From NCBI RefSeq assembly GCF_026914285.1, contig NZ_CP113864.1, forward strand, positions 1,581,001 through 1,645,000: 64,000 nucleotides of DNA. Direction: 5' to 3'. The notes beneath the pieces were generated by a model. The model did not search any database, was not told the origin of the DNA, and saw nothing but the letters and a program-made list of their open reading frames with translations. The DNA is from Caldicellulosiruptor naganoensis. GTDB taxonomy: Bacteria > Bacillota > Thermoanaerobacteria > Caldicellulosiruptorales > Caldicellulosiruptoraceae. This document shows positions 40,278 through 44,809 of this stretch, in pieces. The number at the start of each line of letters is the position of its first letter. Position 1 is the first letter of the stretch. Both the position numbers and the translations under genes were made by a program.

Positions 40278-40684
40278 GTGAGTGTGAACGTTTTGAAAAA
40301 AGAAGAAATAATTCAGTACTGGATTGATTCGGCACTTGACGATTACAAGACCATGAAGCATTTATTTGAAAGTAAGGACTATCTTTGGCGTTTATTTATG
40401 TGTCATATAATTGCCGAGAAATTATTAAAAGCTTTATATGTCAAAAATATTGAAACCATTCCTCCAAAAACACATGATTTATTGTTTCTTGCAAAGAAAA
40501 TACAACTTCCTTTGGACACTTCTATGGCAGATTTTTTGACCTTCTTACAACTTTTAATATAAATACAAGGTATCCCGATTATAAAAGAGAATTTCACAAA
40601 AAATGCACACGAGAATATACACAAAATATAATTGAAAAAGTGGAGAATGTTATAGAATGGTTAAAAAGATTGATTCAAGAGTAA
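40278..40684 (+). pseudogene. HEPN-domain gene broken by a frameshift at a T6 tract
   Basis: The frame from GTG 40278 (YWIDSALDDYKTMKHLFESKDYLWRLFMCHIIAEKLLKALYVKN...PKTHDLLFLAKKI) stops early at 40562. From the T6 tract (40532-40537) the next frame continues with DLLTTFNINTRYPDYKREFHKKCTREYTQNIIEKVENVIEWLKRLIQE to TAA at 40682-40684. One extra T would join them into a normal HEPN protein of about 135 residues. The 3' end overlaps the nucleotidyltransferase gene by 28 bases. Real decay and sequence error are both possible. Confidence 0.8.
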
Positions 40685-40977
40685 AAAATACAATTATGGA
40701 GTATATTAGTAAACTCAAAAAAGAAATAAATGTTATTGATGTATATCTATTTGGTTCATATGCAAAAGGAAATTATCATAATGATAGCGACATTGATATT
40801 GCAGTAATTTCTGACCAGTTCAAAGGTGACTGCATTGAAGATAGATTATTATTAATGCGACTTAGAAGAGACATCGACCTTAGGATTGAACCCCATCCTT
40901 TTAGACCTGAAGATTTTACCGATGAGAATCCTTTTGTAAAAGAAATTAAAGAGTACGGAATTAGAATACCATATTAA
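40657..40977 (+). CDS. MNT-type nucleotidyltransferase (partner of the HEPN gene)
   Basis: The 106-residue protein has GS at 33-34 and Asp45/Asp47 in GSYAKGNYHNDSDIDIAVIS, the minimal nucleotidyltransferase signature. It overlaps the HEPN gene, which appears frameshifted. If the HEPN toxin is dead, this antitoxin-like gene is orphaned. It is unlike the pair at 29.7-30.4 kb in sequence and gene order. Confidence 0.85.
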   Translation: MVKKIDSRVKNTIMEYISKLKKEINVIDVYLFGSYAKGNYHNDSDIDIAVISDQFKGDCIEDRLLLMRLRRDIDLRIEPHPFRPEDFTDENPFVKEIKEYGIRIPY

Positions 40978-40980
40978 AAC

Positions 40981-41568
40981 TTATTTGTTCTTAACATTGA
41001 ATATTTTCTTCATCTGCAGCTCATATGCTTTATTGAAAAGCTCTTCATCGCTAAAAAATGAATGCTGTTCGCTTGTTTGAGGAAAATACCTAAAAAAAAG
41101 ACTCTCTTCTAATGCACGCTGATCTACTTGTACCCATCTCCCCATCAAATGATTGATAGCTATGTTGTGATAACTCAGCAAATATCGACCAATTATAAGG
41201 GCTCTGTGACATTGTGCAGGATCAAATTCACTGCACATCAAAACTATTGTTTCTCTTTCCGCAAGTTCAAGTAAAGTCTCTATGCCTTCTTTAAACTCCA
41301 TTGACTGGATTATTGCGTTGTAGTTCCAATAACCCTCGGGAGTATAGAAAGAAGGATTTTCCAACTTTCCGCCAAGGAGATTCCCAAGAAAAATGTAGCC
41401 AATATTTGCCTGTTTTAAAGCTTTTTCTAAATTTTCTTTCCTATACTCTGGAACAAACCTTGAAAAAGGGTTTGTTCTTATATCTATTGAAATTCTGAAA
41501 CTTTTAAGTATCTCTAAAAAATCGTCAAATTTTACAGATGAATATCGAATGGAATATATTGGCTTCAC
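40981..41568 (-). CDS. DUF488 family protein
   Basis: The 195-residue protein starts MKPIYSIRYSSVKFDDFLEILKSF and has the DUF488 pattern IDIRTNPFSRFVPEYRKENL and CSEFDPAQCHRALIIGRYL; the Cys and CHR motifs suggest a redox or nucleic-acid role, but none is proven. The start is GTG, preceded by a run of nine G on this strand that serves as its ribosome site. A diverged copy of its 3' end lies at 43781-43895. Confidence 0.82.
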   Translation of the reverse strand: MKPIYSIRYSSVKFDDFLEILKSFRISIDIRTNPFSRFVPEYRKENLEKALKQANIGYIFLGNLLGGKLENPSFYTPEGYWNYNAIIQSMEFKEGIETLLELAERETIVLMCSEFDPAQCHRALIIGRYLLSYHNIAINHLMGRWVQVDQRALEESLFFRYFPQTSEQHSFFSDEELFNKAYELQMKKIFNVKNK

Positions 41569-41584: not shown

Positions 41585-41917
41585 TATAATTTTCTAAAAA
41601 TTGTAACTTGTGCATCAATTCTTATATAACCAATAAGTCATAATTAGATTTTTCCAATTATCAAAATAAAATAGAAAACACATTTCAGCTTTCAAGCATA
41701 ACTGTACATATATTTCAACCTTAGATTTAACTACTGGCAATAGATACTTGGCACAACAAAAAGCTTTTCTTTTGTATGTTTAATAAGATTAGTCAATGTC
41801 ATCCTCCTTGTTGTGTGCTTCTGCGTTCTTACTATAATTTACTTCAATAAAGATGGCTTTTTATCTGTTTCAACTTATTGCTTTTTGTTTGTTTATTTTA
41901 TTCAACAAGTTTATTAT
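41585..41917. other. Intergenic stretch in the decayed accessory region
   Basis: No gene is supported. The part near 41800-41917 resembles 44650-44770 (shared TCATCCT, GACTTTTTATnT and TTTATTCAACAAG blocks), so it may be part of an old duplication. No strong promoter or terminator was seen. Confidence 0.4.
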
Positions 41918-42638
41918 TTATAAAGAAGAGTTACATATATTTAATAAATTCTCACGTTCAACACACTTTAAAAACTTTGAGCCTTCTATCCAGTTAAATT
42001 TTTTTATTTGCCTTTCTAACCTCTCCACACTTGCCATTTTGTAACACAAGCCACAATAGATTTTAGACTCACTTTCTGTAATTCAACTGCCAATAAACCC
42101 AAATACTTTATAACTTTTTCGTCAAACAAGTTAGGACCTACTTTAGTTTCGTAAAACTCACCAAACATACCATTCCAAGCTGCTATATCAACAGTCTTTC
42201 TCTCTTCAGTTGCAATTAGTCTCCCATTTATCTTAACACCACAACCTTGTAAAACTATGTAACCTGGCGCATTATATCTTTTATAAACAAAATGAAGAAT
42301 GAAAAGTTCTAAAATTCTACCTCTCAAACGTGACAACTTTTTATGATCATCTTTACCTTCTTCATAAAGTCTCCTTAATTTCAAAATAAAATCATCAACA
42401 AACTCAGTCTTAAAGATACTTTTCAATCTTTCTTGCCATTTTTCAAATGATGTAATATTTCCTTCTTTCCTACTATATTTTTCATAATTGTTAATATAAA
42501 GGATACACTCACATAAGTAAGGAAGAAGGTGAGTGTTATTAACTACAGAAGTGACTATAGGCTCTACAATCCTATCAAACGAAGTATCATTAAATCATAT
42601 CTTTCAAATTCAATAAAATTACTTATCTGACCTTTCAT
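41918..42638 (-). pseudogene. PD-(D/E)XK nuclease-like gene with two frameshifts
   Basis: An ATG at 42638, overlapping the SecB-like gene, reads MKGQISNFIEFERYD, then shifts frame near 42590 into NDTSFDRIVEPIVTSVVNNTHLLPYL...ERKTVDIAAWNGMFGEFYETKVG. The longest undamaged block is 42016-42426. Near 42037 the frame shifts again, to MASVERLERQIKKFNWIEGSKFLKCVERENL and a TAA at 41918. The core VDIAA...FYETKV fits a PD-(D/E)XK active site, with Asp, Glu and Lys in place. Rejoined it would be about 240 residues. It resembles a restriction-type nuclease; both shifts look like one-base homopolymer changes. Confidence 0.65.
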
Positions 42639-43080
42639 CCCTTTCTATCTCTCTACTATTCATATTTTTCTTTAAAGTGTTTAAAATATCAATTGTAGGT
42701 AAAGGTTGAGGTATCAAACCAATTTTGCTCATCACGTCGGAAACTACTTCCTTTAAGTATGGCCATAAAAATCTTACACTTTGAATTTCCAAAAATTTTT
42801 GAAAATCTTCTTTCGATATTGACGCATCATTATTAATACAGCTGCCTTTGTAGACCGCTTCAATTTCAAATATCTTTTCGTTTTCCTCTGTTACTCCTAA
42901 TCGTAAAGCAACATACATATTACCATTTGCATTATCAATAGCTTCACTCCAAGTTTTTACCTCAAGTAAAAATGGAATATTTCTGAATTTAAATGGTTCT
43001 ATTTCCTTTAGCTTTTTTGTTCTTAATTTTATCAGTTCAGTCTTAACAAGCTGAATTGGAGAAAAATAATATTTTCCCAA
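42619..43080 (-). CDS. SecB-like chaperone-fold protein
   Basis: The protein of about 153 residues ends with VRFLWPYLKEVVSDVMSKIGLIPQPLPTIDILNTL, which closely follows the SecB C-terminal signature (FP/LWPY..E.....G.PP..L.PIDF), and the middle has the antiparallel strands of SecB (VALRLGVTEENEKIFEIEAVYKGSC). The start is uncertain: TTG at 43080 has poor ribosome-site spacing, and an out-of-frame ATG upstream is better placed. In Bacillota such SecB-like proteins are not the general export chaperone and are often tied to toxin-antitoxin or defence loci. Here it sits between an unknown gene and a nuclease-like gene. Confidence 0.65.
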   Translation of the reverse strand: MGKYYFSPIQLVKTELIKLRTKKLKEIEPFKFRNIPFLLEVKTWSEAIDNANGNMYVALRLGVTEENEKIFEIEAVYKGSCINNDASISKEDFQKFLEIQSVRFLWPYLKEVVSDVMSKIGLIPQPLPTIDILNTLKKNMNSREIERDERSDK

Positions 43081-43093
43081 TTGAACATTTATT

Positions 43094-43612
43094 TCACTCC
43101 CATAAATTGTAATTACAATATAAATAAAAACCTGCGTCTGTACCGCAGGTTTTTACAATCTTATGGTCACTAATTTCTACAAATCCCTCATAAGAGATGA
43201 AGTTTACTTCAGACTTTAAATTGAAATCAAATCTTTCTAAAAGCCTATCATTTAGACTCTTTAATATTCCATATAGCCAGTCAATTATTTCTACAATATC
43301 ATTGTTCTCGTATGCATCTTTTAAATAAAATATATAATAATCAACTACTGCTTCAAAATTAGGCAGAAATGCTCCATATGTTTCAACTAAATCTATTAAA
43401 CTCAATAAGTAGTCCTTACCTTTTTCTTCAAACCATTCTCTAAACAGTTTCTTTTCTTCTTCTGATACCATAGGAGTTTTCTGAACAAAATAAATCATTT
43501 CAAAATAAATCTTCAAAAACTCAATTAACTTGGAAAATTTTTTATTATTACTTTTTTTAAGCTGCTCCAAACGATAAATTATATCATTAGAAAAATTAAA
43601 ATTTGCTTCCAT
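43094..43612 (-). CDS. Hypothetical helical protein upstream of the SecB-like gene
   Basis: The 172-residue protein (MEANFNFSNDIIYRLEQLKKSNNKKFSKLIEFLKIYFEMIYFVQK...) is mainly helical and acidic, with no signal or membrane segment. I do not recognise a family. AAGGTGAT precedes the ATG. Its stop is 13 bases before the SecB-like frame, and the three genes 43612-41918 appear to form one operon. It could be the client of the SecB-like chaperone or an antitoxin; this is inferred from position only. Confidence 0.6.
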   Translation of the reverse strand: MEANFNFSNDIIYRLEQLKKSNNKKFSKLIEFLKIYFEMIYFVQKTPMVSEEEKKLFREWFEEKGKDYLLSLIDLVETYGAFLPNFEAVVDYYIFYLKDAYENNDIVEIIDWLYGILKSLNDRLLERFDFNLKSEVNFISYEGFVEISDHKIVKTCGTDAGFYLYCNYNLWE

Positions 43613-43780
43613 TACTTATCACCTTCTTAAATTGGTAAATAATCGCGCATATTAAACAAATACTATTCAATTATATGCATATGGATAGCAAAACGACAAC
43701 TAAAATTTATTTTGTAGATATTATTCCTTTCCGTATTTTATTATACCCAAAAACTTCTTTTCTAACCATTCAATTAGAAC

Positions 43781-43895
43781 TTATTTATTCTTAAGCTTTA
43801 ATATTTTCTTCATCTGTAGCTCATACACTTCATTGATATGATCTTCATTGTTAAAAAATGAATAATGTTTGGTTGTTTGAGGAAAATACTTAAAT
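43781..43895 (-). pseudogene. Remnant: duplicated 3' end of a DUF488 gene
   Basis: The minus-strand translation KYFPQTTKHYSFFNNED and VYELQMKKILKLKNK, then TAA, matches the last 38 residues of the DUF488 protein at 40981-41568 (RYFPQTSEQHSFFSDEE, AYELQMKKIFNVKNK). DNA similarity is high over about 115 bases and ends abruptly upstream. There is no start codon. Confidence 0.85.
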
Positions 43896-43915
43896 TTTGT
43901 ATCTATAACTATATC

Positions 43916-44562
43916 TTACATCTCATCTTTACTCTTAACTGTTGGTAGTAGATTGACAAATCTTGCCAAGCACAATAATGTCATAAATAAGCCTGTAATA
44001 TTTTCAAAAAATATTAGATTAGCTATATTTGAATTTGTTTTATTTACTATTTTCTCTATTTCATTACTATTAAATGTTGCCACATTTAAAATATTTGATC
44101 TTATATAATCCCAAACAGTACTTTGTTGAGAAAAGTCTCCTTCAAGCTTTAAAATACAAATCATCATAGACAAATACCAAAACATTATTTCAGCAAAATT
44201 GTGAAGTAGTAACATAACCATTTTGGTTGCTGATTTTATAGAATAATCTTGATTTTTCTTTTGTGCCCTTATTCTATCAAAAAATAATACATTGAGCTGG
44301 TATATTATTATTTCGAAAACTCTCAAAATACCATAAGTTAAAATTATCCAAAATAAAAATTTAAACCGAATATTATGTAGTAGGTTAGTATAACAGCCAA
44401 AAATGATAGAAATAAATTTCCTAATACCCAAGCATCAACAAAAAAATAACTTATATTTTTTATAATTCTTCTGAGCCAGTAGAATATTGAGATTTTTTCT
44501 AAAATGTAAAATATCTTCTCATATAAATTTACGATAAAGGTATCCTTACTGTTATTATTCAT
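43916..44562 (-). pseudogene. Membrane protein gene with a frameshift
   Basis: The ATG at 44562 with AAGGTG upstream reads MNNNSKDTFIVNLYEKIFYILEKISIFYWLRRIIKN...LGNLFLSFLAVILTYYIIFGLNFYF and stops near 44344. The overlapping next frame continues with LFWIILTYGILRVFEIIIYQLNVLFFDRIRAQKK...MVMLLLHNFAEIMFWYLSMMICIL to 43916. Adding one T to the T4 run near 44350 joins them into one protein of about 215 residues with about four membrane segments. I do not recognise a family. Confidence 0.6.
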
Positions 44563-44809
44563 CGATAACACCTTACAACAAACCATTTTATGCCTCAATT
44601 GTTATAAGGACCTTTGAAATTTTTGTTTTTGTGCTATAACTAAATTAGCATTATCATCCTTTTTGCCGTACGTTTTGCCTTTTATAAATTTTACCTCAAG
44701 GATGATGACTTTTTATTTATATCTATTATTTGACTTTTCTGTTAATTCATTTATTCAACAAGCTATTAACAAAAATTAAAGAAGATGACACAAAAATGTC
44801 CACCTGCCC

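Follow-up and report, generated by a model that had tools for sequence, protein, structure and literature searches.

Why should a SecB-like chaperone gene in Caldicellulosiruptor naganoensis stand packed between a gene for a 172-residue protein and a broken, nuclease-like gene? From the letters alone, the first-pass annotation of the window (the whole 64,000-nucleotide stretch analysed) had suggested a chaperone-controlled nuclease module that is now decaying. The conserved gene set, the SecB and the decay hold on comparison with other genomes; we infer that the chaperone controls the nuclease by way of gene 1 and that the third gene encodes an enzyme which cuts nucleic acid. Our best explanation, to which we give a probability of about 0.62, is a decayed toxin–antitoxin–chaperone (TAC)-like module in the order antitoxin (gene 1), chaperone (SecB-like), toxin (PD-(D/E)XK-type nuclease).

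Layout of the locus

How are the three genes arranged? The open reading frames place gene 1, the SecB-like gene and a broken third gene end to end and closely packed, all on the minus strand, as the annotation had it (table 1).

Table 1. Features of the locus, in positions of the window.
Feature	Position	Strand	Basis and remarks
gene 1, candidate antitoxin	43094..43612	minus	ORF, 172 aa
SecB-like chaperone gene	42619..43080	minus	153 aa from the fallback TTG; PF02556, comparison with G009, tree
putative PD-(D/E)XK-like nuclease gene	41918..42638	minus	two frameshifts; ORFs, comparison with G009, motif
terminator-like hairpin and T-rich tract	43124..43156	minus	within the coding sequence of gene 1, 27 nt before its stop codon

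The third gene begins at about 42638, overlapping the SecB stop codon, and is longer than its ORFs suggest. Its counterpart in the congener G009, where the DNA is 95% identical to the window across the last half of gene 1, the SecB gene and the third gene, is a single uninterrupted frame of 239 aa. Against this frame the two breaks that had been noticed are plainly frameshifts, one near the start of the gene and one near its 3′ end; the residues of the nuclease motif lie in the intact middle piece (42016–42591). The same comparison reveals a third frameshift, just past the ancestral SecB ATG (43088–43086), where a small deletion puts that codon out of frame. Since the frameshift follows the ancestral ATG, SecB is left with the TTG at 43080 as a fallback start. 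Promoter-like sites were no commoner than in shuffled sequence.

The surroundings offer several observations of their own. Beside flaG, at 40278–40977 on the plus strand, a HEPN-domain gene adjoins an MNT nucleotidyltransferase gene, a typical HEPN/MNT toxin–antitoxin pair; the HEPN gene has 94 aa in the window against a 135-aa frame in G009, and may be truncated. Two direct repeats of 122 nt (40973–41094 and 43773–43894, 84% identical) flank the whole module and cover the 3′ end of a DUF488 gene; a second copy of DUF488 may have brought the module in or been the site of its recombination. A membrane-protein gene at 43916–44598 (minus strand) lies in two overlapping frames, apparently frameshifted; loci L089 and L091 hold an uninterrupted relative of 212–218 aa.

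Decay within the genus

Is the damage in the window real? The neighbouring flaG gene is present in all 12 genomes of the genus, and in five of them the module or a remnant stands beside it, at a variable locus that also holds the HEPN/MNT pair. No two of the five copies bear the same damage. The window retains an intact gene 1, with the nuclease and the SecB start broken; G009 retains nuclease and SecB intact, with gene 1 cut down to its last part (a 92-codon frame). Gene 1 is likewise intact in G011 (a stop in SecB, no nuclease), in G007 (SecB truncated, a nuclease fragment) and in G008 (no SecB, a nuclease remnant). Across the genus the effector gene is the most frequent loss and gene 1 the rarest. 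Assembly errors are possible in the window copy, though real decay is supported because four congeners carry independent damage, and the proposal of a decaying module is in this respect upheld.

The SecB-like chaperone

Does the 153-residue protein belong to the SecB family? A profile search confirms the identity first assigned to it: it matches PF02556 with E=1.4e-8 and 35.2 bits, above the cut-off of 26. The NCBIfam SecB models and the PADLOC model PD-T4-9_C (CmdC) also match it, weakly. In a tree of 28 SecBs from the inspected loci, those of the nuclease modules (n=13) form one side of a branch (support 90/91) that recurs in 93% of bootstrap trees and in none of 500 label shuffles. They stand apart from the SecBs of CmdT-, HigB-, RelE-, MqsR- and GNAT-type sets.

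How common is the association? Surveying 348 genomes of a Bacillota sample with PF02556, we found SecB in 24, of which nine carry the nuclease module or a remnant of it (seven of 21 when the window's own genus is set aside). Nearly all the other SecB-like operon types in the examined genomes are toxin–antitoxin sets. Outside the alpha-, beta- and gamma-proteobacteria, 44 of 70 SecBs were counted as toxin–antitoxin-associated (PMC4257090). Since nine of the 24 SecB-bearing Bacillota genomes carry the nuclease module, it may explain part of the Firmicutes SecB-like genes outside toxin–antitoxin loci that were counted as solitary.

The third protein

What kind of protein does the third gene encode? 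Among 15 homologues the only invariant columns are G107, D151, E164 and K166 (G009 numbering). The D...ExK pattern, kept in all 15, has the residues expected of a PD-(D/E)XK enzyme, and most members carry a glutamate four residues past the invariant glycine. The homologues fall into two subgroups which are themselves related throughout their length (hhalign 96.6%, E 5.7e-10, 191 columns), the best of 40 column-shuffled controls reaching 0.36%. A low-confidence model (pLDDT 57.6) predicts a helix at 82–105, strands at 112–115, 133–139 and 144–150 and a helix at 158–173, and this order, poor as the model is, is that of the PD-(D/E)XK core.

The label ‘nuclease-like’ thus stands on the conserved E/D/ExK pattern and has no Pfam, NCBIfam or PDB match behind it. 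Searches of Pfam, NCBIfam, PADLOC, PHROGs and PDB sequences gave nothing above the cut-off, and Foldseek and VIA-align on the same low-confidence model found no confident PDB match, a result which, with such a model, counts neither for nor against the fold. The D...ExK region of the homologue L050 matches the Card1 endonuclease domain PF09002 at E 0.0024, below the cut-off, and the L050 protein matches unrelated families equally weakly; Card1-like proteins differ from L050 in that no CARF domain was seen in the latter. From its conserved residues we infer that the third protein is a PD-(D/E)XK-like nuclease.

Homologous modules elsewhere

Are the three genes found together in other genomes? 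The order gene 1–SecB–nuclease recurs in several distant families of the Bacillota and on prophage contigs, with intact sets among them, as the idea of a single module had predicted. A search with the intact nuclease led to the same-order sets L039/L032, L040/L033, L041/L034 and L042/L035 in distant families of the phylum (in the L042 set SecB is reduced to a remnant). It also found L043/L051 and L052, which lie on two viral contigs. Genes for a terminase small subunit and a CI-like repressor are close to the modules there, which indicates carriage by prophages. At L039 (2598–3812) gene 1 and SecB form one frame of 404 codons that runs straight through the terminator-like hairpin; it is either a natural antitoxin–chaperone fusion or a read-through product.

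The second subgroup came to light on inspection of other SecB loci, and comprises L009, L010, L011, L013, L050, L068, L071, L078 and L103. Searches in the two directions agree, nuclease queries leading to SecB and SecB queries to the nuclease. L068, L071 and L078 were found through SecB, which the nuclease adjoins in each, and a nuclease profile built from L009–L011 alone also finds them (E 1.9e-28, 5.3e-9 and 5.2e-20). Conversely, the nuclease profile found L103, in a new family, its SecB and gene 1 having lain outside the query. The subgroup-2 profile matched in ten genomes: seven have intact neighbours, one has a remnant by gene 1, one match sits at the edge of a contig and another is due to chance. 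Two nuclease matches, L036 (G330, in a spoIIIA-like locus) and L104 (E 9.7e-4), have neither SecB nor gene 1 beside them and were set aside as chance. A scan of viral contigs with subgroup 2 gave no match, and neither the PLSDB plasmids nor the INPHARED phages held a relative of the G009, L043 or L010 nuclease or of the L043 SecB. One trait of TACs, an operon that joins a SecB-like gene to two partners and is conserved across genomes, is present here.

The gene 1 protein

If the set is a TAC, could gene 1 be its antitoxin? An AlphaFold model predicts a helical domain (residues ~9–131, pLDDT about 80) followed by a disordered tail (~130–172, pLDDT below 50); such a C-terminal extension is expected of a TAC antitoxin. 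CmdA has a disordered C-terminal region and ends in LAA, a ClpXP signal (PMC11618068), and the HigA-type TAC antitoxins have a chaperone-addiction tail (PMC5105189); in the model gene 1 shares their layout. It stands directly before SecB, and the HigBAC and CmdTAC loci that occur in the same genomes have their antitoxin in this position. Seven homologues from four lineages (L009, L010, L040, L041, L068, L078 and L103) end in an encoded -AA. The analogy suggests to us that gene 1 is the antitoxin.

Gene 1 gave nothing above the cut-off in Pfam, NCBIfam, PADLOC, PHROGs or PDB sequences, no recognisable DNA-binding domain and no confident Foldseek match to its model. No homology was detectable between the gene 1 proteins of the two subgroups. 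Homologues of the WFEEKG type always adjoin SecB or nuclease genes or their remnants, and a gene 1 profile run over 299 genomes matched four, all of them module genomes, of which three (or a near-copy) had fed the profile.

A hairpin inside gene 1

What is a terminator-like hairpin doing inside a coding sequence? The hairpin of table 1 is the only terminator-like site found in 41700–43950. A scan for a perfect stem followed by a T tract found its counterpart in eight gene 1 copies (the window, G009, G011, G008, G007, L042, L043 and L052; with ΔG between −13 and −23 and 6 or more T in 8), ending 12–81 nt before the end of the ORF. A looser scan added L039, with one mismatch. In all nine copies the hairpin lies inside the coding sequence and before the stop codon, the placement that marks arfA and brfA. 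Its core, CTGC...GCAG, is invariant, and the lower stem varies with compensation: 95.7% of cells are paired, five of ten pairs have changed on both sides, and the pairing exceeds that of every slid version of the alignment. Since the right arm is read in different frames in L043 and L052, selection on the hairpin appears to act on the RNA.

How unusual is such a structure? With thresholds of ΔG ≤ −13, at least 6 T in 8 and a position 9–100 nt before the stop codon, none of the 697 other coding sequences of this genome has a comparable hairpin, and hairpins this strong anywhere inside a coding sequence number only nine. None occurs in 14 junctions of the other TAC types examined. An encoded -AA end is missing from the gene 1 copies that have the hairpin, and the hairpin from those with -AA, while L071 and L050 have neither; this mutual exclusion, over about ten lineages, is suggestive.

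The B. subtilis gene brfA and the E. coli gene arfA each contain an internal terminator that yields an mRNA without a stop codon, and their products are tmRNA-tagged and destroyed (PMC6881298, PMC10107115). At the level of sequence the gene 1 hairpin is the same arrangement. Those two genes encode ribosome rescue factors and gene 1 a putative toxin–antitoxin component, for which tagging is proposed by analogy. This genome has a tmRNA gene, with the tag ADKAELALAA. In the hairpin subgroup much of the gene 1 mRNA would probably end without a stop codon and its product would receive this tag, replacing the encoded -AA degron; SecB and the nuclease would be made only from read-through transcripts. 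A bolder reading, which we think possible but less likely than not, is a TAC in which non-stop mRNA serves to make the antitoxin, the terminator in its frame allowing tmRNA to add the LAA degron in trans. Were this so, the stability of the antitoxin would depend jointly on the SecB chaperone, trans-translation and the termination of transcription, and antitermination, disturbance of ribosome rescue or occupation of the chaperone by a phage would shift the balance towards the nuclease.

Might the hairpin instead be a plain attenuator that sets how much SecB and nuclease is made relative to gene 1, with no regulatory part for non-stop mRNA or tmRNA tagging? A terminator between the antitoxin and the genes downstream would cut the output of chaperone and toxin, and subgroup 2 and other TACs manage without any hairpin. 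Yet a simple attenuator is expected after the stop codon, not before it as in nine of nine copies; in L039 the frame runs open through the hairpin into SecB; and the hairpin keeps to copies without an encoded -AA end. We regard the attenuator as a possible reading, though not one to which we incline.

A proposed mechanism and its rivals

How might an intact TAC-like module work? The SecB-like protein would bind gene 1 by its disordered tail and shield it from ClpXP-type proteases, and gene 1 so protected would restrain the nuclease. A phage protein or stress that draws the chaperone away would leave gene 1 to be degraded, and the freed nuclease would attack nucleic acid, so that growth or infection stops. 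The sequestration trigger is modelled on CmdTAC, in which chaperone protection is lost with the capsid protein and the toxin is released (PMC11618068), and on HigBAC, for which a lambda tail protein was reported in the same role (PMC11980606). That nuclease and SecB survive intact in G009, where the first half of gene 1 is gone, speaks mildly against gene 1 being the only antitoxin; the promoter of this copy may be gone too, however, and CmdT alone is likewise not toxic (PMC9519451).

PD-(D/E)XK nucleases are typical effectors of defence systems, and the module rides on prophages and occupies a variable locus beside a HEPN/MNT pair. Could it be a restriction-like or abortive-infection effector with no toxin–antitoxin relation, SecB and gene 1 serving to fold the nuclease or recruit it to a phage target? 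We think this unlikely, though worth keeping in view: gene 1 has the layout of an antitoxin, and the toxin–antitoxin nature of nearly all other SecB-like operon types in these genomes points the same way.

Decidedly improbable is the converse assignment, in which gene 1 is the toxin or trigger, kept low by trans-translation and rising when rescue fails, with SecB and the nuclease downstream. The same layout does report failure of trans-translation in brfA and arfA (PMC6881298, PMC10107115), and the survival of SecB and nuclease in G009 beside half a gene 1 fits it. But gene 1 is kept in four of the five genus copies, the same four that have a broken nuclease or have lost it, as expected if gene 1 neutralises the nuclease, and a helical domain with a tail right upstream of SecB fits the TAC antitoxins. 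That the three genes have nothing to do with one another, SecB serving general export and its neighbours being a hypothetical gene and a pseudogene, would accord with the decay of the window copy but is scarcely credible. In distant families the order is conserved, the genes overlap and the SecBs form a branch of their own, and the conserved synteny contradicts this reading.

Relation to known systems

Which known system does the antitoxin–chaperone–nuclease module most resemble? Like it, CmdTAC (PD-T4-9; PMC9519451, PMC11618068) comprises three genes with a SecB-like chaperone and lies on mobile elements. As in the module, its antitoxin is encoded directly ahead of SecB; it is disordered at the C terminus, as is predicted for gene 1, and has an -AA degron, which several module members share. 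In contrast, the CmdTAC effector is an ADP-ribosyltransferase where the module would have a PD-(D/E)XK-like nuclease, its SecB sits on a different branch, and it has no counterpart to the terminator within gene 1 of one module subgroup. TACs of the HigBAC, HicAB and MqsRA types (PMC5105189, PMC6377645) likewise have a SecB-like chaperone and share the putative chaperone-addicted antitoxin tail; unlike theirs, gene 1 is by profile search not an HTH, HicB or MqsA antitoxin, and the effector is neither a BECR RNase nor HicA. Assignment to the known subtypes HigBA, HicAB, MqsRA or CmdTA was rejected, gene 1 and the nuclease belonging to no such Pfam or NCBIfam family and the order being A-C-T, whereas known TACs run T-A-C.

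We found neither a PD-(D/E)XK TAC nor a non-stop antitoxin in the part of the open literature covered, a partial coverage that leaves the novelty uncertain; provisionally, a TAC with a nuclease effector is undescribed as far as we found. The module appears to be a widespread bacterial suicide-or-defence set in which a chaperone guards the antitoxin of a DNA- or RNA-cutting enzyme. With it, the list of effectors that SecB-like chaperones may guard would gain a nuclease from a new family. As a phage-borne system it is a candidate for a role in defence, and its hairpin suggests that an antitoxin may be tied to trans-translation.

Other SecB-bearing sets were met along the way. In three congeners (L007, L008 and L021, in G001, G005 and G009) CmdTAC-like sets adjoin a membrane transporter-like gene. 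In G104 (L081, 1489–2921, minus strand) a GNAT acetyltransferase (Acetyltransf_7, above the cut-off) stands with a 143-aa protein ending in LKSA and a SecB, possibly a GNAT-type TAC.
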